From Heterotrichella gracilis (Eukaryota > Sar > Xanthophyceae > Tribonematales > Xanthonemataceae), in the NCBI GenBank assembly GCA_032358255.1, contig JAULBX010026829.1:1-64000 (forward strand): a DNA stretch of 64,000 bases. Reading direction: 5' to 3'. The translations under genes were made by a program, and so were the position numbers. The notes below the pieces were generated by a model. That model saw nothing but the letters and a program-made list of their open reading frames with translations. It had not been told where the DNA came from and did no database searches. Positions 3,313-54,196 of the stretch are shown piece after piece; the stretch's first letter is position 1, and each line of letters opens with the position of its first letter.

Positions 3313-3362
3313 TTAGCTAGGGTATGCGCACACGGATGCAAGGAAGCCCTTGGCTAGGGTTG
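3237..3362. repeat. Four palindromic CCCTTAGCTAGGGT-type motifs
   Basis: Near-identical palindromes lie at about 3237-3252, 3270-3290 (diverged, CCCCTAATCAGGG), 3308-3323 and 3343-3362. Each joins a CCCT half to an AGGG half, like two telomere-type units head to head, and could fold as a short hairpin. The DCC1 stop codon lies inside the third copy and its last ~20 codons run through the fourth. Confidence 0.6.
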
Positions 3363-6300
3363 GAAGCCACGTTGTCCATGCTGTGTAAGTTCTGCAGTGC
3401 GCCGGGACTGTAGGGATTTTGCTTACCTGAAGACCCTCCAAGTAGGGCTCCAGGTCCCCCCATTGCCATCGAGGCCGCCGCCTGAACAGCGCCTCAAAGC
3501 GCGCAGCTGGGTCAGGGGGGAGGGAGGAGGCGGGGAAGTAGCAGATTTGGAGGCCGGCGTCGTCCCCGCCGCCGGCCGGGGTTTCTTGTATGGCCACCCC
3601 CCGCAGCATGTCGGGAGTGCAGGTGAAGGCCTGTAGTGCGGGGTTTTGGTGGCGGGTGGTTGAAAGCGGGGTGTTATCCCGTGGGGCGTGCTTTCTTTGA
3701 GACAACTTGAAAACATGCAGCAACCATGAAAATACCGAGAGCAGAAAACCCCACCCAAAACCCTGCCAGGCGTCTGATTCTGGTCCCCTCCCAATGCTGC
3801 GCACCTCCGGCACCATCTCCGTCCACTGCTCCATGAACTCCTGCGCCTGCCAGGTGGCGCAGCGCTGCAGCAGCTTGAGCGCAAAGTGTACACACACCTG
3901 TGCCACACGCCACATGGCACCCATGTCACATGCCTCGTGAGCTGGCCACATGGGCTGTTTCACCTCGCACACCGCACCCCACACGGCACCTGGCAGTGCA
4001 CATGTGCTGTGTGTATTGGCGTGGTGCGCTGTCACTGCACTGCTGAAGGGACGCAGGCCTGTTTATAGTTTGATGCACATGCAGCGCTGGAGCAGCTTGA
4101 GAGCAACGTGCACGCGCACATGACACGCATGTGATGTGTCACGTGCACTGCGGGCTGAGATGTGCATACAGTACCCTCCACCGTCACCCACACACCATGC
4201 TGACTCATGGACCAAGGGGTGTGAGATACCTGTTTATGACTGCCCCTTGCATGGACTGCTCGGCACATGCACGTCCACTGCATCACATGGGTTGGGGGGC
4301 TGCATCTCATGACCCTACCATGCCCCCCAACTAAACCCTACACCAAACCCCGAGCACGCCCATCAACCTCCCGAACACCCACCTTACTGGCAAGGAGGGT
4401 CCATACCCCACTTCCCGCCGAGCCACCAGGCGCCGCCTCCCCATACACGCGCAGGCAGTGGCGCACCAGCTGGGGGGGGTAGCCATCGCCCCCCACCTCG
4501 CGCACCACCTCCGCCTCCTGCAGCGCCCCCACCCCCCACCCGTGCTGGGTGCAGCTCAGCAGCACCACCTCAAGGAGGGACCCTGCAGGAGAAATGGGGG
4601 GGGATTTAGGAGAATGTGGGGCCCACAGTTGGACATGTAAGTATGATTACACGCAGTACACCTCCATAATGAACTGGCCGTGCCATCCTTTCTTTCAACC
4701 AAGTCAACTTTCCTGAATCATGAAAAAATTCAACTGACCAGGCACACGGCCCCCCTATCCCCCCCCTTGTTGCTGATGTGAAAGGCTGCATTTGAAAACC
4801 CTACCTAGGTATTCCAGGTCCACAGAGCGCCAGTACCCATCCAACTCCAGTGCCTGGCGGTCCGACAGCGCCTGGAGGATCTCGGCGGGGCTGGCCTGCG
4901 AGCAGGTGGGGGAAACGGCGATTTAGGGTTGATCCTAAACCCTACCCAAGGTGACGACTTCACGCCTGCCTAGTACCATGCAAAGATGGCTGCACAGCAC
5001 AAAATGGCCTCTTGCTTATATCCCATTCAGCAGGCCCTCCCACATGTACAGCCCCCCGGTGCTGCTCTCAAAACCCTACTAGGGTGTCCCTTTAACCCTA
5101 CTGGGGTGTCCGTCCACCCCTCCCACTTGCCTGCACCCTATCCAGCAGGTCCTCCCACGTGTACATCCCCGCTGTGTTCCTCCACCCCTCATCCATTGGG
5201 TCATCATCATCATCGTCAGGGGCGCCATAGGGCCGTTCCTGCACACATGAAGAAATACCCAGATTTAAGGCCGGTGGGAGATACCAGCTAGGTAGTTTGA
5301 TATGGGATTTGGGTTATGGCATTGTCCGGATAGGATGTTTTGGGGCGGATTGAGTCAAGACTCAGAATGGCCACCCACAGCAGCAACATCCAAAACATGC
5401 ATTCTGATTAAAATGCGACACCAGCATTGCCAGCCTTGTGTTTGGGGTCTAGAGTTCAAAGGTTAGGGCTCATATTTCAGGAATTAAAATGCAGATTGGG
5501 GAGTGAGTGGCCCACCTGTAGCATTTGGTCCAGCATGGCAAGCCTGGGTGTTGTGTGCACCGCCTCCAGGTGGCTCACAGCAGTGGCGCAAACCACAAGC
5601 GCTGGCTGCTGGTCTGCAACCTTGTTCTGCACACAGGAAACACACGCACCATGGCCGTCAGGTCATGTGCATCGCATTTGGAGTAGTGGAATGGGGACGA
5701 GGGGGATCGGACAGAAGGGTCTAGGGTCATTGGGTTTGGGACTGGTGTGGCAGCGGATTGCGGAGGAGACTGTGGAGGTGGCGGCAGTTCATATTGCGTA
5801 CTCGAGATCCATGCACTCCAATGGGTGTACACGAGATGGCTGGAAGGCAACAGCTTGCACAGGACAGGTGAGGCTTTATGGCCACGGCATGCATAACTGT
5901 AACTATACATGTAAGAAATGGGTGTCAGTGTGACCGTATCTGGCAACTGCGAGCGCATGAGTATCGTTTGGGTGCTGCAAGTGCGTCACCTGTTTGACCT
6001 GTGTGAGCAGGCCCGCCTCGTGTCCTCGCTGGGGCTCGGGTATGGGGGAAGGCGCTGCGCCAGGGGGAGCACACACACATTTAGGTTAATCAAGCGGGGG
6101 GGTATCTTGCATTTGCGGCTGTGAAGTGCGGTACAGGTGGCCAGTACTTGGCAGCGGCTTGTGAAGGATAGGGGTGCAACGTGTGCGCCGACTGCTGGTG
6201 GGTGCACAACCCCAGATTCACACATGGGACTGCAAACAGTGACTACACCGTGTGTTGCACTGCCTCAACCACCATGTACCATGATCGAGCACTTGCGGGC

Positions 6301-7102: not shown

Positions 7103-9162
7103 GGTGAACCCACCCTCGATATTGCAACCTTTACATCGCAAGATGAGGGGCAACTTAGTCACACCCACCAGCACATAAAGCAGACAGAGGCGAAGGCTAT
7201 CGTTGCCACGCTATTGGATTGTGGTATGACGAGACACACCCGGTCCTTACACTCGAAACGGCTGTCTTGGGTACGCTTGCGCTATATGCATGCATGTGCG
7301 ATTTCACAGGGTCACATTGTCACTCTGTTCACAGAAAGACCCACGTGTCAAGCGGTAGTTTGTACGCACGAGGGAAAGTTGGCAAAGCAATAAAGAGTTG
7401 CTGAGGTGGTTGAACTGCACTTTCAAACGCAGGATCCTAACGTTCAAACGTAGGGTAAGAGCGCCAGGGGAGGAAATAAAAATTCATGCATGTTTCGCAA
7501 ACACCTTAAGGTGCAATTACAAGCGTCTTCGTCCACCCATATTATTGTTCCATATTTCGTTCTCAATGGTTGCAGGATGTGGCACCCGTGCAAGGCTGAT
7601 GTACACGCTTTGCCTGCAGCATGTCACCCACACCCCGTGAGGTGCCTTCGCCCTGGCAAGTGGGTTAGCTGTGCACACTGGGTGCTTGCGACCCAACTGC
7701 CTTGCAGGTGTATCCCTCTAAACCCTTTGAGAGACTGGCATCCCCCAAAGCCCACCCTCAGTGCCGAAGCTGAATCAACAACCATGAGCCCATCAGCCCA
7801 TCAACCGGTTGTTGGGTTAGCATCCAGGGCCATCAGCTAGCACATATGCAACTCTTGTGATTGGCACTTCAACCTGAGGTTTACAGCTGTCACAATGTGG
7901 ACGCAGGGTGGCCGTTCCTAGCGGCATTCACCCACGCCAATGCTAAGGGAGGTGTATGACAGGGACTTGCAACTGAAGGCAAAAACTTGACCAATGCACA
8001 CTCATGCATCAACGACCCACTGTGGCGGGGTGCAGCTGTCTGGCAATCCTAAGAAAAAACCTCACAAAAAATAAACCTAACCAAACCAAACACACGTCAA
8101 AGGGCTCTGCTATTTCCTAAACCCTAAGAATACCCTAACAAAATTCTCTGCCTCGAGGCTGCAGGGGCACATACGTGCACGCCACCCCAGGATCGCAGTA
8201 ACACACATAGAAAATACGGTAGGTGACTCGTGCACATCTCAGTCATGGCGCGTCAGTCCCAAAACCAGCACATAATGTAGCTGCTGCCCTAAACCCTAAA
8301 CCCCTAAACAGTAGACGAGGCCTCAGGGCGAGGACACAAGGCTCCACATCAACTCCTGAGGGCCAAATCAAAATGGTCCACGGGAGCCAGCGCGGCCACG
8401 CCACCCCTGCTGCCCTGCACCTGCCGCAAAACCCTAATCCTAAGCCTAAACCGTAAACAGCTGCGAGATCGGAAAACCCTGCCCGACTGCCACACCTCCC
8501 CCTCCCCACGCCCCACCACGCTGCTTTGCGTGGCAGATTGCGGCAGAGGAGGTGGGTGATGGTGGGTGGTGGACATAGCCGTCTCCAGCTGCAAAACCGT
8601 AAAACCCTAAATCCTAATAATACAGACAGCTGTGAAGTCCCGATATCCCGCCCGCCCTCTGCCGCCCATTCCCCCACCCATCCCAGCAAGCGCATAGCAG
8701 CCAACCCGCCCCCACACCTGGCCCCACCCCCCACCTAAGCCAACGACTGCTTTGCGGACCGAAAATGGGGCCAAGGGTGATGGGTGGTGGTGCAGCATGG
8801 TGGGTGCGGGCACGCCACAGCTGCTTTGCTGGACAGAAGCGGCGGAGCGGGTGATGGGTGGTGGCGGTCGGTGGTGAGGTGGCATCAAGTCACAAGCTGG
8901 CACACTGCCACCAGCATGCCCCTGACAACTGGCTCCCAAAGTGGGGATGCGGGTGACAGGTGGTGGGTGAGATCAAATTAAGTCACAGCTGGCACGTTGC
9001 CCCAAGCTTGCCCCTCACCGCTGGCTCCAGCCGTGGGGATGCGGGTGATGCGTGGTGGGTGAGGCGGGCTCGAGTCACAGCTAGCACATCGCCACCACTT
9101 TGCCCCTCACCGCCGGCTCCAGAAGTGGGGACGCGGGCGATAGGTGGTGAGGTGGGACCAAT
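7103..9162. other. Spacer between DCC1 5' end and transportin 3' end
   Basis: About 2 kb with no convincing gene. It holds scattered CCCTAAA units (around 8107, 8287-8310, 8430-8455, 8604), several related blocks of type CTGCTTTGCGGA...GGTGATGGGTGGTGG (about 8520-8880), and then the tandem array that runs into the transportin stop codon. The left part presumably contains the DCC1 promoter; no clear motif was seen. Confidence 0.5.
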
Positions 9163-9210
9163 TCACAGCTGGCACATTGCCACCAGCTTGCCCCTCACCG
9201 CTGGCTCCAG
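8890..9210 (-). repeat. Four tandem ~91-bp copies ending in the transportin stop
   Basis: Copies begin near 8890, 8981, 9075 and 9163. Each carries CACAGCTGGCAC, GCTTGCCCCTCACCG, CTGGCTCCAG and a GGGGATGCGGGTGA tract. The last copy is the genuine 3' end of the coding sequence (RGKLVAMCQL plus stop); the others are 3'-flanking copies that drifted. The array sits where the 3' UTR should be. Confidence 0.75.
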
Positions 9211-12200
9211 CTGCGCCAGCGCCCCCTCCCACTGCCCCACCGCAGCCAGCTGTTGCTTGTACATGGCCATGAGGGCCGCCAGCTCCTGGCGCAGCGCCTC
9301 GTCGTCTATGTGGCGCCAGGAGGTGAGGGCGGTGCACAGGGAAGAGAAGGAGGTGAGGGCGGCCTGCAGAAAAGTGGGTGAATGAGGGAGGATGCGGGGG
9401 TGAATGGGTGAATGAGGGGGTGAATGGCGGGGGATTGGTAGGGTTTTTGTGGTGGGGTGTGTGTGGGGTTGATTGCCACCAAACTGCATGCTTGAGTGAG
9501 CGTAGAGGGGATAAAGGTGTGTGTGAAACACCACCCCTCAACGCCAGCCCATGCCACCTTTTCCTTATTATTGTATTTTTGAGAAATATTAAAAATTTAA
9601 CTTGAATACTTCAATTACATCCTGCCACCCACCTCTGGGTTGGCCCTCAGCAGCGCGCACAGCCCCAGGAAGGCCTGCTCCTTCTCCACGTCGTCCCTGA
9701 TGGTGCGCAGCACCGCGCACCAGGGCCCCAAAAAGTGCTGCACGTGCGGCGCGATGGGGTCTGGGCACACCATGGCCATGCGCCCTAGGGTAATGGCTGC
9801 GTTTTCTATGATGGACCGGGGCATGCCGCCGGTGGGTACGCACAGGATGGCCACGAGGCGCTCCGCCAGAGGGGAGACGTAGGGGGACATGTCGGCGGGG
9901 GGGAGTTGCACGCACAGCTCGCCTGCGGGTGGAGGGGGTGGGTGGTGTGGGGGTGGGGAGGGGGGGGGGGGGTGCGCTGGTCTAGGTGTGGGTACAGCTG
10001 ACAACCTGTAGCTAACACCCGTCACTCTACATGCTTCACCCCCGACACCATACAAGCTACACCTGTCCTCGGCCCCTGCCATGCAGCGGCTCTCCACCCT
10101 CAACAATCAACCCTTTAAACCCAAACCCTGCCCACCACCAGGTGAGAATATCTGCTTGCTGATGCTGCCCCACACCCCACCCTCAACCACCCCACACACC
10201 CAACATTTCACCACAACCACGCCCTCCCCCCCCCCCCACCCACCCCCCCACACCACCCACCTATCGACCAGCATGCGTTGTTTGCCGCCGCCATGCTGTC
10301 CGCCACCAGCGCCGCTGGCTCCAGGCTGTGCACCACCAGCTGCACCAGATGGGGTAGCAGGGGGGCCAGGTGGGAGGCGCACACACGCGCAAGGTCGCCC
10401 ACCAGGGCAAAGGCGCTCTGGCGCACGTCGGGGGAGGGGTCCTGCGGTGGTGGTGATGGGTGGGTGTGGAAAAGAGACCAAATATAGAGCTGAAATTTGC
10501 GAAGGGAACCAGCATGGTGTGACCGAGAAAGCAAAAATATCCCTCTTCAGATGCTTCCAGTCCTTTCACACACAACATATTTTTCACCTTGCAGCAGCAG
10601 CTATCAGATGCAAATTAGCTATCGGCAGCTGTTCTACACATGATTAAAACGGAGCACAATAGCAGATCTTCTAAAAGCTTCCATTGTTTGCCTTCCCACC
10701 TTGCAGCACTGCAGCAGCAGCTCCCGAATGGCTGTCCCCGCCACCAGCGGCTCCACACTCGCCCTCAGCCCCTCAGCCAGGCCACTGACCAGGTCAAGGC
10801 TACTGATGATGAACTCGGCCTCAGGCTCCTGCGCCACAGGTGGGTGAATGCAACGAACATCACATACTGATATAGATACGTGCCTCGCCGCAGGTACAGG
10901 GCGCTGGTTGGGAGCACCTGCCCAGGAGGCCCAGTCATACCCTCTGTAAAAGATTCCGCACATGCCTGCAGCTTTATGTGCGAGTCAGCTTCAACCCAGG
11001 CGTGTCTGAGAAAGGGGAAATAGGAAAACCCTAAACCCTACCTGCTCCACGTGGTGCCCCGCCTCCAGGGCTGCCTGCGCCCCCAGGTGGGTGGTGATGA
11101 TGCGCAGGCAGCGGTCAAAGACAGGGGGGGCGTACTCCTCAAACGCGGGCCCCAGGGCCTGGGCGATGGATGTGAGGCACTCCAGCAGGGGGAGCAGCTC
11201 TGTGGGGGGGGCAATTGGGGGGTAAGGGAAGTGGCATGAGGATGAGGGGAGGGGGAGGGAGGCCCATGCATGATGGGTGTGAGGCACTCCAGCAGCAGGA
11301 GCAGCTCTGTGGGGGGGGGCGGTTGGGGGGGTGAGGAGGGGGGAGGGGGACACGTACATGGTGGTGTGTAAGGGGGGTGGGTGAGGAGGATGGGGAGGGA
11401 GGCGCATGCGTGATGGGGGTGGGAGGGTGCAGATGGTGGTGGCATGAACAGATTGCACCCTGGAGGTCCTTCCTACTAGACAGCCCAACCTAACTAGTAC
11501 ATCCAAGGTCCACTAGCGAGTTCCACTTGTGCACCAGCACGGCCAGGAACACTTTACAACATACACCTGATTTCAAAACCCCAAACCTTACACATAGAAC
11601 CCTACCCTTGTCGCTGTCCCCCAGCTGGTTCCACTTGTGCACCAGCGCGGGCATGAACACGCCCCTCAGCTGCGGCTGCGCCAGCCCATCCCCCACCACA
11701 TCTGCCAGCGTGCTCAGCGCGTCGTACAGCATGCGCAGGGAGCGGCGACCATAGCTGTGGAAGCCCTGTGCAGGGGGTGATGATGTGCATAAATCTATAT
11801 GTGCCGTTCAAGCGTAAGGATACTGTGCCGCCTTGGTAAAACGCTGCTATATTCAAAACAGAGTAGATATTTTTCTGTTGCAATTCCACTTTGTGTAAAT
11901 CAAGACTGCCAGCGTGCTCAGCGCGTCGTACAGCATGCGCAGGGAGCGGCGACCGTAGCTGCGGAAGCCCTGGGCAAGGGTGATGCGGGGCTGTTGGAAG
12001 GGTGATGCGGCAATGTTGGGGAACCCTTGCGCAAGAGTAATGTGGCGCGTGTGTACTGGGAAGGACAGAGGCTGTGAAAAAGCATTCACTACAGACTATT
12101 ATAGAAGGGGATTCAGCTACTTCATTTTCTGCGTATTTACTATGCTTAACCAGACAGCGGATTCAAACACCTGAGAATGAGGTGATTTACCTCCAGACAG

Positions 12201-15148
12201 CACACGCAGATGCAAATAGACATGGTAAGGGTACTGACAATAGTGATACCTCAGCGACGATGAAATTGCATGCATCCCTGCCTCACCTGTATGATAGCCT
12301 CCAGCACCACCGGCAGGCGCGGCACCATTGCCTCCTTGCCCCCCGCCTCCTCAAGGGTGGCCAAAGCTGAGCAAGACGCCTCCTGCACCACCCTGTTGTG
12401 GTCGCCCACGCACTTGAGCACACCCTGTTGGGAGCGGGAATTGCAGGCTTATGAACCTTTCGGGTTGAGGATTTAGGGGCGAGCAGGGCGCGTCCTGGAC
12501 AGCGCGGTTGTGGTTGCCCTCTAGACAAGATATCTATTTTTTTATCTTTTGGAAAATGTTTGGGATTCCACACCATGAGTACAGGGTTAAAATGGCCCGC
12601 GCCCAGCCCTCGCCCTCCTGCCGCACCAACCAAGTTAGGGTTTTCAGGGTTTTAGGGTTCCTCACCATGAGCACTGTGGCAAACTGGCCTCGTGCCAAGC
12701 CGTCATTTAGACACGGCCATCACTCAACCACTCAAAACACGGCAGCAGCTGGTACCATGTCCATGAACTAGGGTTCAGGGTGTAGAGTCTAGGGTTTCAA
12801 GGGTTTCAGGGTTCCGCACCATAAGCACCGTGTCAAACTGGCCCGGCGCCACGCCCTCGCCCTCCTGCTGCACGATCCACTGCGTGTAGCGAGACAGCGC
12901 CCAGCACCCGATGGACCGCACCAGCGGCCGGCCGTCATTCAAGCACGGCAGCAGCATGGCCACCATATCTTTAAGGTAGGGTAGCAACCCTAGGGCACAG
13001 CCCTCGGATATGGCGCCCAGGGCCAGGATGGCGGACTCGCGTGCGCGCCAGTCGGGCTCCTGCAGCCGCTGCTGCACGATGGGCAGCACGATGGGCAGCA
13101 TGTCGTCTCCGAACACGGTGGAGAGCACGTCCAGGCCCGCCGCGCTGCACTTGCGCAGGTTCCACAAGCCCACCTGCGCATCCAGACCAAATCATATAAT
13201 TATAGCATAATTTTATACGTATGCTCACATAGAATGGACAGTAACAATGGTATACAGAAACCACAAGCCCACCTGCATGCACATTCAGACATAGTTTGTA
13301 ACCTGTAATGTTATGTTTTCTTTGCTTGTCGTATACATGGCTCATCTACAACGGCATATCGGTTGCGCATGCCCAGCTATACTACAATATCAGCCTAAAG
13401 GGCGTTGCTAAGTGCACGATAGCACATAAGCTGCCCTGGTTATTGTGGATTTCCAGTTGCAAACATTCAGAACTCGCATAAGGCCTGCCCACTTGGCACA
13501 TGCTGTTGCATGCTGATTATTACCCCTGATTGGGTCCTTTAAAATTTAAAGTTTAAATGCATGCAAGCTCACCTCCTCCTCCTCCTCTTCCTCGTCTTCC
13601 TCCCCCCCTTCCCCCTTGGCAGCGCTCCGGTGGATGAATGGCTTGAGCTCGCCCTCACCCTCACCCTTGGACCTCTCAGCCTCTTCCGCTTCTTGGACCT
13701 GCGGGTGGGCACATGAAGGATTCAATTCGAGCTCAGAAACTGAAACCCTATACCCTTGAGCCTCTCCGCCGCTTCCGCTTCTTGGACCTGACAGTGTGTG
13801 GCACATGGAGGAGAATCAGACCCATGGAGGAGAATCTGCAAGGCATACCTTTCATCATGCATGAACTCAAGCCGATAACCAACTGACCCTCATGTATAGC
13901 AAGGCGCTAAAATCCAGGAAACAGTCGCCACTGAGACCCTAAACCCTAATGCCAAAGCTTGTTATCAATTGTGAAGGTAGCAGGTCCCCGCATCCCTCGT
14001 CATCGTACACCATGTTCTTGAGCAGCACCAGGATGAGCTGGGCAAGGAACCCTAAACCCCCAACCCTAAACCCCCAACCCTCCCGTACCTCATCATCGTA
14101 CTCATCATACACCATGTTCTTCAGCAGCACTGGGATGAGCTGGGGAAGGAAAACCCTGAACCCCAACACCTAAACCAAAAAACCCCAAGCCCACCCCTAC
14201 CTCGTCATCGTACTCATCATACACCATGTTCTTGAGCAGCACGGGGATGAGCTGCGGCAGGAATGGCTTGAGCACCTCGCTCTCGATCTGCGCCTCGCAG
14301 AAGGCGGACCAGAACTCGCACGACTCCAGCGCCACGCTCTCGTCGCTGTCCTGGGTGGAGCTGAGCATGTAGTCGATCAGCTCCCGCATGCTGCCCTGGA
14401 GGATGTCGGGCTGGATGTGCAGCATCTGGACCAGGCCGGTGCACACCGCGCGGCGCACGCCCGTGTGGTGGGAGAGGGCCAGGGAGAAGAGGCCCTGCAC
14501 GTACTTGAGCAGGTTTTCTTGCATGGCTGGGAACATGTGGCCTGCCAGCAGGTTGAGGATCCCGATGGCGGTGCTCTGCGCCTGGGGATGAGGGCACTGG
14601 AGCACCTCCAGTAGCCGCGGGATGAGCAGCCCCGATGGCTTGTCCGGGAAGCCAACCACGTCATGCTGCAGGGAGAAGGGCACGTCTTCAACCACCTTGT
14701 AGAGGGCGTCCAGTGCCCCATCCAGCAGTTCGGCGCTGGTTGTCTCCAGGCACTGCACCAGCACTGCTAGGAGCTCTGGCCAGGATGCCAGTCCTGCCCG
14801 ACCCACGATGACCGCGATGCAGGTGCCGTTGGTGTGCCGGATCTGGCGCTCCGCGTGGCCGATGCCCTTGACCAGCACCGACTTGATGTACGTCTTGTGC
14901 TCATCAGCCAGGGCGGAGTAGTGCGCGGTGAGGTTGTTTTTGAGCAGGAGCCCAGCTCCTAGCCGCACCGCCACTGGGATGGTGGCCCCGTCGCTGAAGC
15001 TGAACGCCAGGTAATTGTTGAAGTCTGGCACTGACTTGCACTGCTCCAGCTGGGCCAGTATCTGGGTCTGGTCTGCATTGGGGTTCTGGTACTCCAGCAG
15101 CAGGTGGCATATCTGGTTGACGCCTTCGTCGGCTGGCTGCCATAGCAT
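9163..15148 (-). CDS. TNPO1: Transportin-1 (karyopherin beta-2)
   Basis: Nuclear import receptor that carries PY-NLS cargo, such as RNA-binding proteins, through nuclear pores and releases it on Ran-GTP. Ten exons (minus strand): 14201-15148, 13573-13698, 12820-13173, 12287-12424, 11606-11765, 11042-11199, 10700-10828, 10261-10441, 9633-9922, 9163-9363; total 895 codons including the stop, the same size as plant transportin. HEAT repeats run throughout. Diagnostic stretches: PDFNNYLAF, GLLLKNNL, ALESCEFWSAFCEAQ, the acidic loop (exon 2, residues 317-358, mostly E/D), WNLRKCSAAGLDVL, SIGCWALSRYTQW, LPLLECLTSIAQALG, SLDLVSGLAEGL, RQSAFALVGDLARV, AANNACWSIGE, ENAAITLGRMA. The start is taken at MLWQP, which aligns with the family N-terminus. 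Exon-edge echoes sit in at least five introns. Confidence 0.95.
11270..11320 (-). repeat. Echo of transportin exon 6 start
   Basis: Lies in intron 5. It repeats GTGTGAGGCACTCCAGCAG, then GGAGCAGCTCTGTGGGGGG, from 11169-11210, including the CACAG acceptor and G-rich flank. Further partial GATGGGGGTGGGAGG blocks follow to 11430. Confidence 0.75.
11905..11972 (-). repeat. Echo of transportin exon 5 start
   Basis: Lies in intron 4. A nearly exact copy of 11700-11768 (GCCAGCGTGCTCAGCGCGTC through GGAAGCCCTG). It keeps the open frame GRRSLRMLYDALSTLA, so it is young. The genuine exon is the one that continues into DVVGDGLAQPQL. Confidence 0.85.
12486..12745 (-). repeat. Echoes of transportin exon 3 end and exon 4 start
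   Basis: Lies in intron 3. Two copies of the exon 3 donor edge (about 12571-12628 and 12663-12718) resemble 12817-12870 (CACCATGAGYAC...GCCCTCGCCCTCCTG). A weaker copy of the exon 4 start lies at 12486-12520. TTTAGGG-type units (GGGTTTTAGGGTTC) separate them. Confidence 0.7.
13258..13290 (-). repeat. Echo of transportin exon 3 acceptor
   Basis: CCACAAGCCCACCTGC at 13261-13276 repeats the exon 3 acceptor region at 13162-13177, about 100 bp into intron 2. Confidence 0.55.
13750..13796 (-). repeat. Echo of transportin exon 2 start
   Basis: Lies in intron 1. It repeats CTTCCGCTTCTTGGACCTG from the exon 2 acceptor edge at 13684-13702, next to an AAACCCTATACCC telomere-like block. Confidence 0.7.
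13998..14145 (-). repeat. Two echoes of transportin exon 1 end
   Basis: Copies at about 13998-14042 and 14090-14142 repeat 14201-14252 (TCATCRTACACCATGTTCTT, then GAGCAGCAC). CCCTAAACCCCCAACCC-type blocks lie between copies. The nearer copy keeps a GT donor (GAG|GTACGG); the farther one has lost it. Confidence 0.85.
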
Positions 15149-21606: not shown

Positions 21607-22234
21607 TCCTGCACAGCTGCTGGGGTATATTTGGGTCCCACACACTTGATGCTGGCTGGCAGAGAGGGACAAAGCAGGTGCACGGCTCAGCGAGGGGACC
21701 GGTAGGCGAGTGTCGCTGGTTGATGGTGAAACCCTGCTATATCTACAGCACTTGAGTCTTTAAAGTTCAGAGCATCTCGCCATGGCTTGAGCCGCCGTTG
21801 AACCGTCAACCGGCCGTGTGATACCGCCGGCCACCGGAGATGTGACCTCCCCAGTTGGAAACAAGGGAGATAATGAAGTCAAACACGTGCGCGCAGACTC
21901 CCGACCACGTGCGCCACTCGAACTGCTTGCTTGGCAAAGCTTGGCAGCCTCGGCAGCAGTTCGGTGATACAATGGAACTTCTGCGCGTTCCTGGTACCGC
22001 GGGCTGGTCAAGGGTGGGTGTCGAGCTTGTGGGAACCTGGGAGGGTACGCCGCCATCACACCGCATGTCGGCTGGCCAGTGATTGTTCTTAGGGAGACAG
22101 GGAAGGAGCACTGCGAAAACCCCCACAAATAATTGCGCTGCACTGGACACACCTACAAGGTTACAGCAAGCTTATGCCTGGTGCCCACAGTCGCTACATC
22201 ACCTTGCAGCCATTACTGCATAGTAGGAGCAAGA
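21607..22234. promoter_or_regulatory. Shared divergent promoter region
   Basis: The 628 bp between the head-to-head starts of the gamma-CA-like gene (-) and the DJ-1/PfpI gene (+). Both promoters must lie here. I could not pick out a TATA box or other named element. A 130-aa minus-strand reading frame across it shows no family features. Confidence 0.5.
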
Positions 22235-27990: not shown

Positions 27991-28116
27991 AGCGGGCAGA
28001 GTGGAGGATTTTGAAATAATAAACGGCCTTGCTTGCATGGATATGTAGGTTGAGGGCTGCCAGATAGGATTCTTTAATTGACCTGTCATGGTGAATGACA
28101 CAATGGAATTTTGGGG

Positions 28117-28190
28117 GAAGCACAGCAGACCGCGGGCAGGGCCTGAAGGGTGCAGAGCGCAGTATGCTGGTATTGGAAAATAAATAGCCT
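28117..28190 (+). repeat. Echo of the 407-aa gene 3' end
   Basis: GAAGCACAGCAGACCGCGGG and onward repeats 27961-28030 (GAAGCAAAGCAGACCGCGGG), through the stop region and an AATAAA-containing tail (AAAATAAATAGCC). Confidence 0.8.
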
Positions 28191-43977: not shown

Positions 43978-46900
43978 ATGACGCCGCCGTTGCGCATTGG
44001 CGTGGACGTTGGAGGTACTCAGTATTCCCAGGCTGGATCTAAATTGAAGCGTTGGGTCGTATTGTTGGTTCCAAACAGGGTTGAAACTGTCCTTCTGCGT
44101 CACAAAACTGTGTCACATGGTCATTAGGGAACGTTCCATGCATACAGTAGGTACAAGGTCAAGGACCAAGCGATGGATGTATGGCCTACGTTTATATCAT
44201 AACGTGAGGTTGTAGAGTTGCTGTATATTGCACGCGGTGACTGACAAGGCCCATCTCGGTCGCAGGCACCAACACTGATGCGGTGCTGTTGGCTGGGACC
44301 CGAGTGATAGCAGTGGCAAAATGCCCTACCACGCCAGAAGTGCTGAAGGGGGTCGAAGCTGCACTGCAAGAGGTGTTGAAACAAGATATAGGTAGGGTCT
44401 CGTAAGCACCAAACCCACAATACCAGCTTTCGGAAGCATGTGGGACATATGCATGCACATGGCGCCAAGAATCGGCTGATCCCGGAACCCCCTGAAAGCG
44501 GCTGGCAGTACTGAAGAAGGGGTTGCAAGTTCCTTATTAATATATAGTCGTAAAGGTAGGTTGTGGAGAAAGTTGCAGAGACTTCCAAGTGCTTGTTGCT
44601 GTGTCATTGTGTCCGACTGGCTATGGCACAGGCTAGGCATACAGGCCTGTGGGCCTGCTTCTTTTTTGACCTCTTATTGAGTGACTCATGAAGTCATGAA
44701 GACTATGAACTGATGAACCCTTGTGCATGCAGACCCATCCCGAGTGGCGGCATGCATGCTGGGGACCACGCACTTCGTCAACGCACTGGTGCAGCGCCGG
44801 GGCCTGGCACAGGTGGCGGTGCTGAGGCTGTGTGGGCCCGCCACCACCTCGCTCCCGCCCTTTGTGGGCTTCCCTGCAGAGCTGAGGGCGCTGGTGGGGG
44901 ACCGCCACTACCTCCTGCCTGGTGGGTGAGCCATGTGACATGTGTATGCATATATTGGGGAGGTGACGCCACTTCCTTGTCCCAAAGGGAGCCATTGCAA
45001 TACCATGGGTGAAGGCACATTATAATTACAACTATAGTACAATTAGTGATGGCATATGCATGTCTTGGCACCCACTTACTGCAGAGCTGAGGGCGCTGGT
45101 GGGGGCCGCCACTACCTGCAGCCTGGTGGGTAGGTATATGCATAGTATGCATGATGCTCATAGATGTGGGGGCGCCTGATGGCATATGCATATGGACATG
45201 CAACGTGCATGTATTGGTCCCCACTACCAGCTGCCTGGTGAGTCTCCAAAGAGTGGTGATAACCATGGGTCATGCACCGGATACACCACATGCCATGCCA
45301 CTGACGACCCATGCATCCAACCATGGACTGTCACTTGCTCATTGCGTAGCTCAGGGCCAATGATTCGATGGGTTTAGGGTTTGGGTGGGGGCTTCCTGCT
45401 GCCTGGTGAGCCATGCCATGAAAATGACACCTGGCACATGCATCCCTTGGCATTCCACAAATTCCAGACATTTTGGGACGGCCGTGACTAGAGCGTTGGT
45501 GGGGAATCCACAATGTTTACTTGCTGAGGGTAGCCATAGGTGCACGCACCCATTGGTTGCAGACTGCCACTTACCTCACTAGTTGGAAGACTATGCCACC
45601 CATTGATCAGTGATGTGTTGTGACATGGCAGGTGGGTTTGAGTATGACGGTGGGCATGAGATCAGCCCCTTACACGAGGAAGACATCCGAGGGGCGGTGC
45701 GGGACGCAGCCTCAGCAGGGGTGCGCTCCCTGGTGATCTGCGGCGTTTTTTCCCCTGTCAACCCATCGCAGGTAGGGTTTAGGGCTCCTCTGTGCCCCCG
45801 CCTCGTTCCTTGGTGGATGTGGTTGTTGATAGGCAGTGAATTCCTTGCAAAAGGAGGAGGAGATTCAATGCATAAAAATATTATCTATTTATGCAAAAAT
45901 GTTTTGATTTTGTGAGCCCGGGTTGGCTCCCTGAATGTGACTGTCAAATAAATCTTGTAATTTTCCCGCAGGAGGAGGAGTGCTGTGGCATCGTTCTGGA
46001 CGAGCTGCAGCGCTTGGGTAAGCAGTGCACTCAGGAGCATGTTCAGGGTTTAGGGTTTGTGCACTGTAGGGTTTAGGGTGCAGGACAAGCTGCAGCGCAT
46101 GGGGGGGTGGGGTGGGGAGCCCCAGCCTCACTTGNNNNNNNNNNCGGCGGGGGGGGGGGGGGGGCGGCCGCAGCACCAGCATCACTTGCACCCTCATCAT
46201 GACGGGTTTCAGGGTCACCCTCAGGACCCTAAAACCCGTCATGATGAGGGTGCAAGTGATGCTGGTGCTCCCCACCTGGTGTGCTCTACCCAAGCCCTAA
46301 ATACCTAAATACTATTGGGGGCATGTATGCGCTCAATTGTACAGCTGGATTCATGCATCTGCTCAGCGCGTGGGACCTGATGGTGGAGCAAAGGCAACCC
46401 TGCGTGCATGGGTCACATGTGACTAAATCCTGAACCCTGAACCCTATGTAGCATACCCTAAGGCAGCCCTGCATACTTGAGCCATATGTGGTGATTGCCT
46501 GGACCCTAGAGTTTAACCCTAGATCCTGTATCCTAAGGCAACCCTGCATGCATGGGCCACATGTGACTCCCACCTATAAAACCCTCTGGGTGTGTGCGCA
46601 TGCATTACCTTGAATTCAACGGCCTCGTGCTCATCGTACCAGTTATGCGGTGAACCCCTGCGCAGGGTGCGCCCATGGTGCCCACGTGACTGTCTCTCAC
46701 CGCATTGGTCAGCTTGGCCTACTGGAGCGAGAGGCTGCAGCAATACTCAACGGCGCACTGCAGGTGAGTGTCTCCTTGTTGCAGCGTGGCGCAAGCTTGT
46801 GCAACCCGCACAATCGGGTTGACGTCATATGCCAGGAAAGCAGCGCACTTGGAAGGCGCTTTGCAGGTGACAAAACCCTGATACCTAAAACCCTACACCA

Positions 46901-49900
46901 TACTTGAGAAAAAACTGCAGATGGGATACCATAAACCATGAACCATACCCAATGCACACTGCAGGTGACACCATACCTAAATCTCCAGACCCTGCTTGTT
47001 TCCTAGCTTTACCCCACTACCAGCCGAGCCATCCTGCGAGAACAACCAGGAGCTATTCCCTCCCTTTAGGTTTATCAATTTGTGTGAACATTCCAAATGC
47101 AGCCGCTGGCGGCTCGGGTAGTGCCTGCCTGCCGGGCCGCCCTGCGCCGCGCGGGCCTGACCCACACACCCCTGTACTTCACAGCCAATGACGGCACACT
47201 GGTCGGCGCGGAGGCAGCCATGCAGGTGGGGGCCTGCATTGTGCTGTAGTGTTGATGATTGTACTGTACATGTAATTTTTATACATAAAAGTAGGGCTGA
47301 ACTGCTGAATGTTTCCTCCCCATTGTGCAGGTTCCCATATCCACCTTCCAGAGCGGTCCTGTCAACTCCCTCAGGGGGGCAGCATTCCTCAGCGGCATTG
47401 CAGATGGAATTGTGGTGGACATTGGGGGGTAAGGGGACTCTACGAACTGACGTGGAGTGCTAGTGGCAGTGGGCCTTCAGGCATGCCCTTGACTTCAATA
47501 TTAATACATTCGATCATTTGATGAATATCAGACTGCCACTGCTGGGTTGGGGTCTACCATTGAATCCCATCACAATCATTGCAAGTTGCTTATCAGCGCA
47601 TTTGGGAAGAAAAGAAGGGAACGCCACAAAGCGGGGTTAGGGGTCCCGTTACAAAGCATTGTCATTACTCTCGCTATTCTAATTAATTCCAATAAATATT
47701 GATTACTTTTGATTGAACTCGCAGGACTACCACGGATGTCGGTGTGCTTGTCAAGGGCCTGCCCCGCCCTGCGCCAAGGACCGTGGAGATGGTGGGGGTG
47801 CACACAAATTTCCAAATGCCAGAGATTTTGAGCGTTGGGCTGGGGGGCGGGAGCCATGTGGTTTGGGCCCCTGGGGGGACGTGTGCTGTGGGGCCAACCA
47901 GTGTGGGGCACAAGCTGATGGAGAGGCATGTCTAACAAAGACCCTAAATCCCAATCCCTAAAACCCTGAAACCCTGAGGATCATCCCAAAATCTGAAGCC
48001 TGAAACACAAACCCTACACCCTGCGAAGCCATACGCTCAGCATATTTTCTCAGGAGCTGCCATCTATTTAAACTTGACTGTTTTGTCTAACTGCTGCCGT
48101 CCTGGTATGACTTCTGTGTTGAAATGCCACCAGGATGCACAAGTTGATACCGACTTTAACTTTTGCCCTGGCGAGGTAGCAGACAGGGCAGATCAGCATT
48201 TTAATCATTTACATCTTGTTCTGTTTACCTGTGTAATGTGCTCTGTATACCCATTTTCCTGCATGCTTCCTGCTGAATTTGCAAGCTGCCACACAACAAA
48301 AGGAATTTTTCATTCCGAACAGTTGGAAAAACATGTTTGTGTTGGTTTCAACCCTTCCTTATCCCCACAGGGCAGTGAGTCAGAGGGGCAACACAATAAC
48401 TGCAACAGACGTGGCGGTGGTGCTGGGGGAAATGGAATTCGGGGACCCTAATCTGGCCAGGGCCAAAATCAGCGATGAGCAGGCCGCCACTGCATGGGGT
48501 GTAATTCAGGCGCAGCTGGAGGGGTGTGTTGACCAAATGAAGACGCACGCAGGTGGGGGGCATGCAGGTGGGGGCCACCCACAATATGGGGGAATTGGTG
48601 TGTGGCCCATATCCTATGGTGGCCTCCTTCTTTCTTTCGCCTTTCTTTTGTGCTTCAAGACCCTAAACCCTAAGCCTTCGGGTTGCGAGTGGGCACAACA
48701 GGAATGCAAGGTTGCACAGCACCAACTTGGTAGTAAATCGTGTTGCTGAGCCCAAGCATTCACCCCTGGATGGTGGTCCCCCTTTCAGTTGACATCCCTG
48801 TGATCGTGGTGGGCGGGGGAGTGCCCCTGTGCAGCCGCCACCTGGCAGGGGCATCCAGTGTGGTGGTGCCGGACCATGCTGATGTGGCAAACGCGGTGGG
48901 TGCTGCCATACCACAGGTGGGGGCCTGCAACCTTTCACTCCAAACCGTAACGCTTGCTGCATCGAGATCTCAGTTCAAGCCAAACCGCAAGTGCCTGCTG
49001 GACGTTAAACCCTAAACCCTTAGGTCCCAAACCCCCGATAGTAAACCCTAAACACGTGGCGCAGGTGAGCGGCGTGGTGGATGGTGTGTACCTGGTGGGT
49101 GCAGGGGGGGAGGCCAGGGGTGAAGTGATAGCGCAGGCGCAAGGGGAGGCCCTGCAAAGGGCACTGGCAGCTGGAGCGCAGGAGCACACCTGGCAGGTAG
49201 GCATGTAGGAGTCAGTTTGGGGTTTTGATTATAGGATTTTGGTTGGAATGGGTGAAACAACCAATAATGTACAAGGCATCTGCCATGTTTGACATGACGT
49301 TATATTGTGTACTGAACCACACCGCTGTGAACAAACTTGCCTGGTTAGCGAGGCATGTTTCTGACCTCTGGGTGCCACACCCCGGTGAGTAGGGGTTTTC
49401 ACACCAATAATTGTGCTGATGCCACCTGCAAACGCCGATGATGCAGTGATGTGATGCTCCCAGGTGGTTTTCCTGGAGGAGGTACCACTTGCTTACCTGC
49501 CAGGTGGCGCAACCAGGGTGCAAGTGAGGGTGGTGGGGGATCTTGACCTGGGGGCGCTGGCGCTGACATCATCCCATGGGGGTGCTGAGGTGGCGCTGGC
49601 ATCATCCCATGGGGGTGCTGAGGTGGTGGTGGCGTCACCGCGTGGCTATGCTGAGGTGGCGCCGATGTCATCACATGCGGGGGTGGAATCATGGGAGCCA
49701 AAGGTAGGGGATTGAGCAGTGATGAGCACGCAAGCCCACCAGTCTACCTCAGCCACCTCCATCCCACCTCTTCCAATGCCTGCTGCACCAGACTCCGTAG
49801 CAACAGGTCAGCTGTGCGGTGAATGACACCCTAAGCTCTACATTCAAATGGGCTAGCTGCCCTGAAGTGTAACCCAAACTGCATTCCCCTCATAACCATG

Positions 49901-52900
49901 CAGTCACAGAGTTGCTTAAAATCCGCCAGGCTAACATCCTACAGGGCTACTGGCGGCTTTTTAGCAGCTCAATGACTGCCTGGTCATGAGAGGCATGCAA
50001 GTTGGGCCCAGGTTGGCTTCCGAGCAGTCAGCTCCAGCCAGGGCCCATTGCTAGGTAGCGCAAATTTGACTTTTAATTTGAGCTGTAAAGCTCCTGAAAA
50101 GTCTGTTCAATGTGGCTGCACTAGCCTGTTGACAGTGGCTGGAAGCCTGCAAAAAGGTGTCTGGAAGTGTGTGGGCGGTATGTGGAAGTGCCCAGTTTGG
50201 GGATTGGACTGGGGCATGGGTTGACTTTGTGGTGCCAAAGAGGCTTGTGGTTCAGAGGGTGGGCTTCGCCACGTGCCTGCTTGGGGTCACACACCCACCC
50301 CATGCCTCTGACACCAGACCCAAGACTGGGCACTTCCACACACTACTGACAGACTAGTACACCCAGACACTGGCGGTAGCAGGGATAAATCCTCAAACTT
50401 GGTCAATGAGGAGGCGGCAGTGGTGGTGGTGGAGTGGGGGCATTGGGTGTTGATTGCTTGCACAGCCCAGGGGCCTCAATCATGACTGATTGCCTGCATG
50501 ACCGCTTAATTGGAATTCCCATTAACGCACTTGTTCAACCCTTCATGGGACTTCTTCAGCATTCCTCCCTAGAGGTGTCACACTGTCACACTTTGTTGGA
50601 ACAATACTCTCTTGAAAGGCCTTGTACATACCCTCAATTTCAATCTTGCTGCCAACCCACTGTTATGTACCGCGGGTGTACCGCCTTTTCGCCATCGATT
50701 TTTCCTTCTCTCCCTGCTTCCCAGTTGGACGCCAGTGGCGCCTGGGTGGTGAGCCGCAGGGACGCCGCCGCAATTACCCTAGGGTGTGGGGTGCTGGGCA
50801 GCGGCGGGGGGGGCAGCGGCCACCGTGCGCACCTCAAACTGCTGCAGGAGTTTGACAGGTGAGGGGGTGGGTGGGTGGTTTAGACTGCCAGTGTGTAGTA
50901 GCGGTGCATGGCGCACTATGGTCACAATTGCTGGGAACGGCATCCATTATTGAGTCGGCATGAAATAACTCCAATGCCTGGATGTTAGATCCACCCCTGT
51001 CAGTGCCTTGTGCAATCGAAGGTATGCTAACATCTTGTTTCATTAGGACAGTGTTTAATGGGATCACCACCTCATGTGCATTGCAGGGGGGGCGTAGCAC
51101 GTGTGGTCTCTGTGGGGATGCTCCCCCCCGACTGCATAGCTGTGGAGGCTTCCTTCATGGGTGCACCCACAGTGGGGATTGAGAAGCTGGACAGCAACCA
51201 GGCAGAGACAGCCATGCGGGTGGGTGCAGGGGTTTTCTAGGGTTTTGGTATTTGGTAGTCGGTGGGGATTGAGAAGCTGGACAGCAACCAGGCGGAAACA
51301 GCCATGGTTTTTCTGGGTGTTTGGATATTTTAATATAATTTTCTATGGGGATTGAGAAGCTGGACGGCAACCAAGCCGAGACAGCCATGAGGGTGGGTGT
51401 AGGGATTTCTTGCGGGTTTGGGTTTATAGAGTACATCACATGTGGGTGCATCCGCTAGGCCTCAGGCTTCCTTCATGGGCTCACCTTTGGTGGAGGTCAA
51501 GAAGCTGGATAGGAACCAGGCCGAAACAGCCATGCTGGTTGGTGTAGGATGGCATTGCACTGTGATTTGCAAACTGGGCGTTGCAACCAAATCAACAAAA
51601 AGAGCGCCAATCAGCCGCCCCATTGCTGAGTCCATGCACTGGCTTTGCAGCTGAGCACTACTTCAATACTTCTTTCTTATTTATTAGTTGAAAGTAATAT
51701 TGTCGATTAATGATGTTTCCTTTGCAGGAGGTAGCCGCCACGGCCCCTGGGCGCACCCTAGGCGGTATTTTTGCGGGGGAGATTGGCGGTGGCAACGGGG
51801 TTGAGCCCCTAGTGATTGGGTGCAGGGCGGGGCTGGCGGTGGTGGATGTGGACCTCATGGGGAGGGCGTTCCCTGAGCTGCAGGTAGGGTTTGTGCTAGG
51901 GTTTGCATAGGGTTTGATGGGATAGTGTAGGGGTTGTGTAGGGTTTGTGGATGTGGACCTCATGGGCAGGGCGTTCCCCGAGCTGCAGGTAGGGTTTGTG
52001 CTAAGGGTTTGGTGTGCAGACGTTGCCCAACTGACTTAGGCATATCAACATGATCCTGCTCTGTAGCTAGGATGCACAGGGTTTGGCAGGCTGGCAATGT
52101 CAAGATCTGATCTGACCCAGCGTCTGGGTATGCTCTCCCCCCAAGCCTCAAAATAAAAAAAACCCTTGAACATATGTCTGCCGCACACCCTAGACCCTAA
52201 CCTCGCCCCTCCCCCCACCCCCAGATGACCACTGCTAGCATCTATGGCCTGCCCCCTGCCCCCGCTGCCCTAGCAGACGAGAAGGGGAACGTATTACTGG
52301 TGCCTCAAGCGGTGTCCGGGGAGTGGGAGGAGCGCATGCTGCGCCCCGCATGCACCGCCATGGGCTGCAGCGCAGGCTTTGCATCCCCACCGCTCACCCC
52401 CGGGGACCTGGAAAAGGTGAATATATTTTTGGATGGCGTGCAATTTTTAAAAGCAGCAGGTGTTTTGTCTTGTGCATGTGCATGGGCCCAGGCGGTGTCA
52501 GGGGTCTGGATGGAGCGCATGCTGCGCCCCGCATGCGCCGCCATAGGATGCAGTGCGGGCTTTGCATCCCCACCGCTCACCCCTGGGGACCTGGAAAAGG
52601 CAATTACCCCACCTGTGCAAAGAACCTCATGCTTGGTCTTTCCATGTTCTTTCATTTTTCTGTACTTTCCACCCCTGGACCCTTCTCCCTCTTTTTTTCC
52701 CCCCTCGTTTCTGTCCCTGCAGGTTGGGATCCCTGGCACCCTCAGCCTGGCCTGGCACCTGGGCAGGGCCATACTTGAGGCCCAGAGCTGCAAGGGGGAT
52801 GCGGTAGAGGCGTGCGCGAGGGTGGGAGGGGGCAAGCTGCTGTTTGTAGGTGCGCTGTGGCGTGCTTGCATATGTGCACGGTGTTGTAATTGATATTTGG

Positions 52901-54196
52901 AAATGTACCCCAAAGGGTGAGTGGATGTCAGGTAGGGTTGGAGGTGGAGGGGAGGCGCAGATTGGGGTTTAGGGTTTCACCCCCACTGCGCATTAGAGGC
53001 ATGTGCAGGGTTCATGTGTCTGTGCTACTTGTCTTTATGTATACCGATCATCCACTTGCAAGGGTTGCAGTGTGCTGTCTGCCAGCATCATTGCCTTGCA
53101 CCCACCCACCTACTGTGCTTGATGTCCAGAGCTCCTCACTCCCCTTCCCTCCCCACCCCTTCCTCAGGGGGACTACGTGTATACATTGCAACTTATAACA
53201 TAATGTAAATATAAATCCTTAGTTGTAGTATCGTCCGTTTGTCGCCCTCCCCTTCGCTTCCCTCCTCTCCCCCACAATGCCCCAGGCAAGCTCACAGACC
53301 TGCACCAAACCACATCTGAGGGTTTTGCGCGCGGCTACGCCCTGCTCCAGGGATCCCCTCCCCACACCACCCCCAGGGATCCTCACCATCCTGACAGTCC
53401 GCGCATGTCCCCCCCCGGGGAATCACACCATCCCGGCAGCGCAATTCATGGCGGCGGGGGATCCCAGCTGGCTCAGCTGCGGGTTGTGTTCCAGAATGAG
53501 AACCTGGTTGCCTACCTGGATGGCGAGGTGGTGGCCAGTGTGCCTGACCTCATCGTGCTGCTGGAGGCTGAAAGTAGGTGGTGCGAGGCATGCATGGTGG
53601 GACACAAGTAACTGGAATTATAACATGAACATAACATGTATTTCACGCAGCCTCCCCTTGAACCTCGCATTATTTTGCACATTCCAAAGGAAAGGAATGG
53701 AGAGGCCGTGATGTGCATGCCCATCCTGTTCGCTACCATCATCCATACTAGCCTGCCATGGTTGTTTCAGCTACTGAGGACTCGTCTACTTAGCCAATTA
53801 CATCTTTTATATACGTAGTGTTTGGAAAAGTAAAAGCAAATGTTTATTTGTTCCAGGTGGCCTCCCCGGTTCTACCGAGGAGCTGCGTTATGGGCTGAGG
53901 CTGGCGGCGTTTGATTCCACTTCTCTTTTCACATTAATTATCGCTCTTCTTATCATTTTGGAAATGATAGTCAGGCTAGAATTATTTTGTATTTTCTTTC
54001 AGGTGGCCTGCCCGTTTCTACCGAGGAGCTGCGCTATGGGCTGAGGCTGGCGGCCCTGGCCCTACCGGCACACCCCCTGCTGCGCACCCCCCGTGCCCTG
54101 GAGGTGGTTGGCCCCCAGGCGTTTGGGTACCCAGGGGTGGAGTATGTGGCGGTGGGGGAGTACCCCCGTGTGGCTGGCATTCCGCGCCAGGCATAG
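43978..54196 (+). CDS. Hydantoinase/oxoprolinase-DUF917 fusion protein
   Basis: ATP-dependent hydantoinase A/5-oxoprolinase-type domain followed by DUF917 (S-methyl-thiohydantoin desulfurase-like); 987 aa, soluble, probably acting on a cyclic amide. Twenty exons: 43978-44014, 44266-44391, 44733-44921, 45632-45771, 45972-46017, 46666-46763, 47103-47225, 47331-47428, 47725-47925, 48371-48552, 48789-48916, 49065-49196, 49464-49703, 50725-50858, 51087-51219, 51728-51883, 52225-52416, 52723-52849, 53286-53573, 54003-54196. Nucleotide-binding motifs IGVDVGGTNTDAVLL (~7-21) and IVVDIGGTTTDVG (~279-291); SHRIGQLGLLERE; VPISTFQSGPVNS. DUF917 from ~581: LGCGVLGSGGGG, VEASFMGAP, VVFQNENLVAYLDGE, STEELRYGLRLA, VVGPQAFGYPGVEYV. 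Fusion phase is intact at exon 13/14. Intron 9 uses a GC donor. A contig gap lies in intron 5, but phase is preserved across it. Confidence 0.9.
45078..45412 (+). repeat. Three echoes of hydantoinase exon 3 end
   Basis: Lies in intron 3. Copy one (45078-45130) repeats GCAGAGCTGAGGGCGCTGGT, CGCCACTACCT and CCTGGTGGGT; shorter ones near 45216-45245 (CCACTACCAGCTGCCTGGTGAGT) and 45388-45412 (CTTCCTGCTGCCTGGTGAGC) keep the donor edge. Confidence 0.75.
46078..46112 (+). repeat. Echo of hydantoinase exon 5 end
   Basis: GCAGGACAAGCTGCAGCGCATGGG resembles 45998-46018 (GGACGAGCTGCAGCGCTTGGG). It follows GGGTTTAGGGTTTGTGCACTGTAGGGTTTAGGG. Confidence 0.6.
46135..46144. other. Assembly gap (10 N)
   Basis: Ten N bases inside intron 5, followed at once by a run of about 19 G, so the gap size is probably unknown. 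Confidence 0.95.
46172..46269. repeat. Perfect 38-bp inverted repeat
   Basis: Arms 46172-46209 and 46232-46269 are exact reverse complements, with a 22-bp spacer. Lies 27 bp right of the gap. It could be a genuine hairpin or an assembly fold-back next to the gap. Confidence 0.85.
51259..51545 (+). repeat. Three echoes of hydantoinase exon 15 end
   Basis: Lies in intron 15. Copies at 51263-51307, 51346-51395 and 51466-51545 repeat GGGGATTGAGAAGCTGGACA and GCAACCAGGCNGARACAGCCATG. The last copy extends further upstream (GCTTCCTTCATGGGCTCACC). Copies two and three keep a GT donor; the first has lost it. Confidence 0.9.
51944..51992 (+). repeat. Echo of hydantoinase exon 16 end
   Basis: Lies in intron 16. 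GTGGATGTGGACCTCATGGGCAGG and GCGTTCCCCGAGCTGCAGGTAGGG repeat 51842-51889 with the donor; only a few bases differ. Confidence 0.93.
52489..52600 (+). repeat. In-frame echo of hydantoinase exon 17
   Basis: Lies in intron 17. I count 11 mismatches in 108 bases against 52309-52416. The copy is open and lies in the same frame as exon 17, with an AG acceptor before it; its donor GTGAAT has become GCAATT. Family proteins need only one copy. Confidence 0.93.
53855..53912 (+). repeat. Echo of hydantoinase exon 20 start
   Basis: Lies in intron 19. CAGGTGGCCTCCCCGGTTCTACC and GAGGAGCTGCGTTATGGGCT repeat 54000-54050, including the acceptor. The copy would shift frame, so 54003 is the true exon. Confidence 0.92.

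Follow-up and report, generated by a model that had tools for sequence, protein, structure and literature searches.

In the 64,000-nucleotide stretch of Heterotrichella gracilis DNA analysed here (contig JAULBX010026829.1 of assembly GCA_032358255.1, positions 1 to 64,000 of the forward strand; hereafter the window), many introns carry decaying copies of the edges of their neighbouring exons. This feature, put forward in a first-pass annotation made from the sequence alone, is confirmed by the analysis reported below, and copies of the same kind are also found beyond stop codons. All of the results come from this single window and from six partly modelled genes within it.

Exon models for the six genes were built from open frame, consensus splice sites and homology and comprise 55 exons and 49 introns, the introns being of the GT-AG type apart from two GC donors and the exons joining in open frames. 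A transportin gene (TNPO) occupies 9163–15148 on the minus strand with 10 exons, and residues 3–868 of its model align with human transportin-1 (2qmr). On the plus strand, a branching-enzyme gene (SBE) with 11 modelled exons lies at 29983–37147; residues 6–652 of the model align with rice branching enzyme (3amk), and branching-enzyme domains were detected in a Pfam scan of the frames. These near full-length alignments bear out the earlier statement that families such as these need only one copy of each segment. Further along the same strand, at 44733–54196, 18 exons were modelled for a gene that we call HYU, whose 5′ end lies outside the model; Pfam finds S-Me-THD_N (2–157/158), S-Me-THD_C (3–189/190), Hydantoinase_A and Hydant_A_N there, and the one modelled reading frame unites the Hydantoinase_A and S-Me-THD domains, the latter presumably being the domain formerly named DUF917. 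A Dcc1 gene with four modelled exons lies at 3805–5238 on the minus strand (Pfam Dcc1), and the remaining two genes encode, by their Pfam domains, an amino-acid transporter (Aa_trans) and a hexapeptide-repeat protein, which we take to be a gamma carbonic anhydrase (GCA). The G+C content is 63.7% in exons and 51.3% in introns.

Introns carry copies of their own exon edges

Each exon edge (up to 150 bp) was scored against its adjoining intron with a threshold of 28, and the controls were other edges, with adjacent same-gene intron edges excluded, and each own edge in reverse complement. At this threshold 28 of 98 own edges find a copy, while other edges do so in 20 of 4532 comparisons and reverse-complemented own edges in none of 98; at a score of at least 34 the numbers are 24/98, 0/4532 and 0/98. 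These controls rule out chance and low complexity as the source of the matches. Copies are present in 20 of the 49 introns, and in 20 of 39 when the transportin, Dcc1, branching-enzyme and HYU genes are taken together. Copy-bearing introns have a mean length of 508 bp, as compared with 301 bp for the others.

Forty-six copies score at least 26 (identity 71–100%, distance to source 28–407 bp), and 43 score at least 28 (identity 71–98%, distance 85–407 bp). In 20 of these 43 the match reaches the splice junction, and in 31 it ends no more than 6 bases from it. The copies sit inside introns, which the models splice by their outer sites. An unbiased local self-BLAST, with telomere-like heptamers masked and low-complexity pairs removed, recovered 34 exon/intron pairs, all of them direct and none inverted. 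Of the remaining pairs, 12 are intron-only (10 direct, 2 inverted), 3 join an exon to a flank and 1 lies within a flank. In four of the direct intron-only pairs, copies of a single exon match one another; the remaining six fall into 4 introns. Hand counting gave this grouping and the 24 junctions that underlie the 34 exon/intron pairs.

Taken together, the own-edge excess, the direct BLAST pairs and the multi-copy families support the proposal of repeated local duplication across exon/intron borders. The first-pass estimate of over 20 copies, lying within a few hundred bases of the source and in the same orientation, also holds. Both strands are represented, and four of the six modelled genes carry copies: transportin and Dcc1 on the minus strand and the branching-enzyme and HYU genes on the plus strand. 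Beyond the gene models, a splice edge at 27.2–27.4 kb and two stop edges, one at 28.0 kb and one at 42.8 kb, have copies as well; none of these open frames matches a Pfam family.

Copies at individual splice edges

In the branching-enzyme gene, 8 of 10 introns carry copies. At 30701–31174 its exon-2 edge is followed by four copies with a period of about 102 bp and an AAACCCT-type spacer, their identity to the exon being 97.9, 97.9, 89.6 and 86.5%. The same gene has a copy of the acceptor-side edge of exon 6 at 33207–33279 (89.0% over 73 bp) and a copy of the donor-side edge of exon 7 at 34137–34191 (90.9% over 55 bp).

Copies are found in 6 of the 17 introns of the HYU gene, on the same strand. 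The donor-side edge of exon 13 has been copied three times at 51262–51535, with identity falling with distance (95.6, 91.5 and 80.6%). At 51884–51988 a 63 bp TAGGGTTT-like spacer precedes a copy of the exon-14 edge (95.2% over 42 bp). The last 111 bp of exon 15 are copied at 52489–52599 (89.2%), where homology stops 1 bp beyond the junction, and the first 52 bp of exon 18 are copied at 53857–53908 together with the acceptor site (94.2%).

On the minus strand, copies score at least 28 in 4 of the 9 transportin introns. Two copies of the donor-side edge of exon 1 lie at 14000–14151 (92.1% and 93.9%) with a TTTAGGG-like spacer, and the acceptor-side edge of exon 5 is copied at 11906–11969 (96.9% over 64 bp); within the 140 bp between this copy and the acceptor of intron 4, the last 17 bp alone match. 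Dcc1 has copies at 5022–5067 and 4081–4119, in 2 of its 3 introns. An acceptor edge in an unmodelled plus-strand open frame, which has no Pfam match, is duplicated in tandem at 27209–27380 with a period of 90 bp.

The three copies that had been described as nearly exact are somewhat less so, at 95% (51947–51988), 89% (52489–52599) and 91% (34137–34191).

Copies beyond stop codons

Of nine stop edges, three have copies in the 3′ flank, with scores of 50–83; the other six score 15–20, and the control maximum is 25. The highest-scoring is that of transportin, in which the last 48–49 coding bases, the stop codon and the 3′ flank form a tandem array at 8847–9211 on the minus strand with a period of about 92 bp (3.7 units including the source, array 8873–9210; three exon/flank pairs; score 83). 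The other two, at 28.0 kb and at 42.8 kb, end unmodelled plus-strand open frames in which Pfam finds no match. The end of the 26–28 kb frame, with its stop codon, is copied in the 3′ flank at 28112–28165 (score 52), and the coding end of the frame with its stop near 42833 is copied at 42926–43018 (score 50); in the latter the edge-scoring match ends 14 bases short of the stop, and another match passes the stop at 71%. In this scoring the end of the coding sequence was placed one base too early for TBC and, for the 28 kb frame, one base too late. At start edges, for which the start codons are predicted and that of a PfpI-like gene was placed one base late, copies were found at none of five, with scores of 16–21 that lie within the control range.

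Duplication is therefore not specific to splice sites: splice-site-specific copying is weakened because edges at stop codons carry copies too, and the tie to splice sites as such, which was part of the original idea, is not supported. The contrast between stop edges (3/9) and start edges (0/5) fits a filter of tolerance, under which duplication would be borne wherever one intact coding copy stays in use.

Decay and age of the copies

Codon changes were examined in the 43 copies that score at least 28 (three of the 46 fall below it); several copies share an edge, so that the pairs are not independent. Differences fall at codon positions 1, 2 and 3 in numbers of 72, 56 and 126. Indels break the frame in 26 of 28 cases, and changed codons comprise 128 non-synonymous (5 of them stops) and 82 synonymous. 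The synonymous share of 39%, as compared with 29% expected from unconstrained single changes, would fit an unconstrained copy set against a constrained exon that itself gains synonymous changes, a reading that was inferred rather than fitted. Among the 22 copies that are at least 88% identical, 36 synonymous and 39 non-synonymous codon changes were counted. The copies evolve as non-coding DNA, and because their indels break the frame and their codon changes are unconstrained they are local duplications and not missed exons, as had been proposed; the solved homologues of the branching enzyme and transportin, too, use each segment once. Missed or alternative exons were rejected as an explanation on this test of coding constraint.

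At edges with several copies, the nearer copy resembles the exon more closely in 15 of 22 comparisons and less closely in 6, and one comparison is a tie; one of the nine families lacks a common interval. Mean divergence is 0.133 from copy to exon and 0.157 from copy to copy, means that include the second copy of SBE 8, which is plainly misaligned (0.51). The branching-enzyme exon-2 array departs from this trend: its first two copies do not differ in the part compared, so that copies of copies arise as well.

Spacers, telomere-like motifs and junctions

Several of the youngest copies are separated from their source by unrelated sequence and not by a diverged copy. Unmatched spacers measure 123 bp in TNPO intron 4 and 127 bp in HYU intron 1. 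A spacer search covered the 31 of 46 copies that score at least 40. Within the window the spacers share telomere-like or own-family sequence, besides a few short weak matches, and those of HYU 15, HYU 17, SBE 7 and SBE 9 (donor side) have no other hit. In such cases direct repeats flank inserted non-homologous DNA, the pattern expected of staggered-break repair with filler.

Some spacers are largely telomere-like, for example at 51884–51946 and 30749–30802. Degenerate TTTAGGG/CCCTAAA heptamers make up 4.65% of the bases in modelled introns, 0.24% of those in coding sequence and 0.89% of those in the remainder of the window (unmodelled genes included); there are 253 hits, 123 and 130 on the two strands, against a mean of 13.75 in dinucleotide shuffles. 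At least one such heptamer is present in 33 of 49 introns (for example at 30863–31080, 51884–51949 and 12640–12820), and of the 44 introns that exceed 200 bp, 18 contain one within their first 66 bases, just inside the donor, whereas interior positions drawn at random give a mean of 9.0.

For the junction analysis, 36 of the 43 copies (junction distance of at most 15) were collapsed to 25 junctions, each represented by its best-scoring copy. The intron share of the tract is 0.21 as against 0.36 by chance over the 25 junctions (p = 0.00015); at the 16 junctions with a best copy of at least 88% identity, the two values are 0.235 and 0.363 (p = 0.007). Homology between source and copy drops within the first bases past the splice site. 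The bias toward the exon side may come in part from faster decay of intron pairs and from chance extension. The end of homology at the splice site was considered as a strong sign of a splice-linked breakpoint and was dropped, the measured bias being moderate.

Other features of the window

Several further observations were made in the same stretch. A 33 bp repeat in 3.8 copies lies at 49558–49682 in a coding exon of the HYU gene, between the hydantoinase and S-Me-THD parts; these in-frame tandem repeats show that coding DNA is also duplicated internally, and perhaps the protein tolerates it there. HYU intron 15 (52417–52722; 306 bases) lies within an open frame, and its retention would for that reason be readable. 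In a branching-enzyme intron, 34428–34630 is self-complementary over about 200 bp at 75% and is possibly a decayed inverted-repeat element. The edge of the first coding exon of the amino-acid transporter, with its donor site, has a copy 1.9 kb upstream in the same orientation at 86%, the pair lying at 63655–63719 and 61756–61820. At 22571–22833 an array of GTGGGTGGGG-type units resembles local donor sites, apparently within an intron of the 22–23 kb gene, which we take to be PfpI-like.

A Pfam search of the plus-strand frames at 23.8–29.8 and 40.7–44.7 kb gave only a sub-cut-off Hydant_A_N match, and the window was empty for Rfam at gathering scores and in a tRNA scan. The window proteins had no relative among viral contigs, nor transportin among genome contigs. 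The best 80 of 430 relatives of the branching enzyme are all bacterial by title and were not used further.

A possible mechanism and its alternatives

How might such copies arise? We consider it probable, with modest confidence, that they are the output of recurrent repair duplication, by staggered-break repair or template switching, seen through a filter of tolerance at coding edges. Tracts of about 25–120 bp that overlap the edge of a coding sequence would be duplicated repeatedly beside themselves, and in many cases some tens of bases of filler, unrelated or telomere-like, would come to lie between the two copies. The likeliest route would be a staggered break, fill-in of both overhangs and end joining with filler, giving “tract, filler, tract” in direct orientation; short-range template switching is an alternative route. 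Events within an exon would destroy the gene and be lost, whereas those over a donor, an acceptor or a stop codon would survive, since one intact coding copy stays in use, and would lengthen the intron or 3′ flank, leaving the spare copy to decay free of constraint.

In favour of this account are the own-edge excess, the uniformly direct orientation, the non-coding decay, the contrast of stop and start edges, the greater likeness of nearer copies to the exon, the greater length of copy-bearing introns and the telomeric insertions reported at mammalian breaks (PMC2246262). So are several close copies, such as that in TNPO intron 4, whose homology ends near the edge even though they lie far from their source.

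Several observations weigh against it. At 30701–31174, 8847–9211 and 27209–27380 the families are simple tandem arrays in which filler is scarce or absent. No significant association links the copies to telomere-like sequence (13 of the 20 introns with copies and 12 of the 29 without; p = 0.15), and telomere-like filler as the cause of the duplications was set aside as suggestive but not significant. Unrelated intron positions extend by at least 14 bases by chance in 10% of trials, so that short matches beyond a junction mean little. In the amino-acid transporter and hexapeptide-repeat genes, copies score at least 28 in none of 10 introns, and the effect is therefore uneven among genes. Finally, break repair and selection alone leave the excess of coding-edge over intron-only duplications unexplained.

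This last point is where the chief alternative must be judged, namely that ordinary tandem duplication strikes at random sites and that edge cases survive selection and stay recognizable because the exon copy is constant. Stop-edge copies and plain tandem arrays do exist, as do intron-only local duplications in 4 introns, and the exon-ward shift of the tract at the 16 junctions of high identity is only moderate. In a simple simulation of one window, with independent events and a simple score threshold, tracts of the observed lengths were placed randomly, fully exonic events were lost and intron pairs decayed two to four times as fast as the free copy by itself; 45–71% of visible events are then intron-only, as against the 4 of 28 observed (the others being 24 exon-edge junctions). 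The P values for this deficit are 9e-10 to 6e-4, and at most 0.0016 if 5 of 29 are counted. Random placement together with selection is not enough to yield the coding-edge excess, and we consider this alternative rather unlikely, if still a serious contender.

The prevalence of coding edges over intron interiors might be understood if G+C-rich or transcribed coding DNA were a preferred target of duplication, a possibility left by the higher G+C content of exons. One can imagine a bolder reading, which we hold only tentatively and lean against, in which coding edges are hotspots of duplicative repair and introns grow outward from exons like growth rings. If so, each event would add filler and a fresh edge copy beside the exon and push older copies inward, and decayed exon edge and filler would make up much of intron DNA.

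It is also worth asking whether the copies are an artefact of assembly, in which divergent haplotypes or paralogues with common exons and differing introns led to misjoined short-read contigs that repeat the edges. Such misassembly would account for the exon-edge bias, the short overlaps and the direct orientation, and in an HYU intron a ten-N gap near 46136 lies close to a near-perfect palindrome of about 100 bp (91%; 46135–46269 for gap and palindrome together), which is either real or an assembly scar. The copies, however, form a gradient of identity between 98 and 71% and contain stops as well as indels that break the frame, the codon changes in those of at least 88% identity are not allele-like, and several edges have 3–4 copies. 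Decay that breaks the frame and families of several copies lead us to regard misassembly as improbable.

A handful of young copies, among them those near 53857, 11906 and 52489, keep the reading frame and are preceded by AG and followed by GT or GC, as unannotated alternative or mutually exclusive exons would be, but this is a very poor prospect given the 26 of 28 indels that break the frame, the 82 synonymous among 210 changed codons, and solved homologues (3amk, 2qmr) that use each segment once. Least probable of all is copying linked to splicing or RNA, such as the insertion of reverse-transcribed pre-mRNA pieces into introns. The fading of homology just past the splice site would agree with it, but stop-codon edges behave like splice edges, and free cDNA insertion should go both ways and not 34 to 0.

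Comparison with known systems

Introner elements are a route by which intron DNA spreads, as families of similar elements at unrelated sites. The copies described here differ in that each resembles its own neighbouring exon (28/98 own edges, 20/4532 comparisons with other edges), and a search within the window found no inserts that are alike across loci, apart from telomere-like sequence and some short, weak matches. Among the literature considered by title or abstract opening, no description was found of exon-edge copies lengthening introns. Parts of the process are known, and its density and its coding-edge bias look new.

The origin of intron DNA is largely unresolved, and thousands of novel introns are said to defy the proposed mechanisms (PMC3443670). 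In a genome where between one in four and one in three of the splice and stop edges tested keep a spare copy, successive intron-lengthening events would become readable and datable and their rate measurable, and the different predictions for stop, start and splice edges would make the output of repair separable from selective tolerance. The present observations suggest that introns keep growing through small, local duplications of coding-sequence edges.

The first-pass statement that known intron-growth routes do not describe this pattern was overstated, given what is described of border duplication in potato (PMC4974935) and of intron gain by break repair (PMC3443670). The latter lists break repair with inserted DNA and flanking repeats as a route of intron gain; there, too, DNA is inserted between direct repeats that come from gap filling of staggered breaks, but those repeats are short, while here they are about 25–120 bp long, include a coding edge and lengthen an existing intron. 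Telomeric repeats inserted at breaks offer a second parallel, with flank duplication reported at 6 of 130 loci in rodents and 4 of 25 in primates (PMC2246262): in both cases telomeric-type repeats lie at insertion sites and the flank is sometimes duplicated, although here TTTAGGG/CCCTAAA is a general feature of introns whose link to the copies is not significant. Repair of adjacent nicks is said, in a reference cited by PMC8153287, to lead to tandem duplications in plants. A further likeness is to the tandem duplication over an intron–exon border described in the potato RdRp gene (PMC4974935) and to cases in Drosophila (PMC2891723), which share the local direct duplication and, in potato, a tract that also crosses the border. 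In those cases a new intron arises, whereas in the window the copy decays within an existing intron, often beyond non-homologous filler, and the same edge is hit repeatedly.

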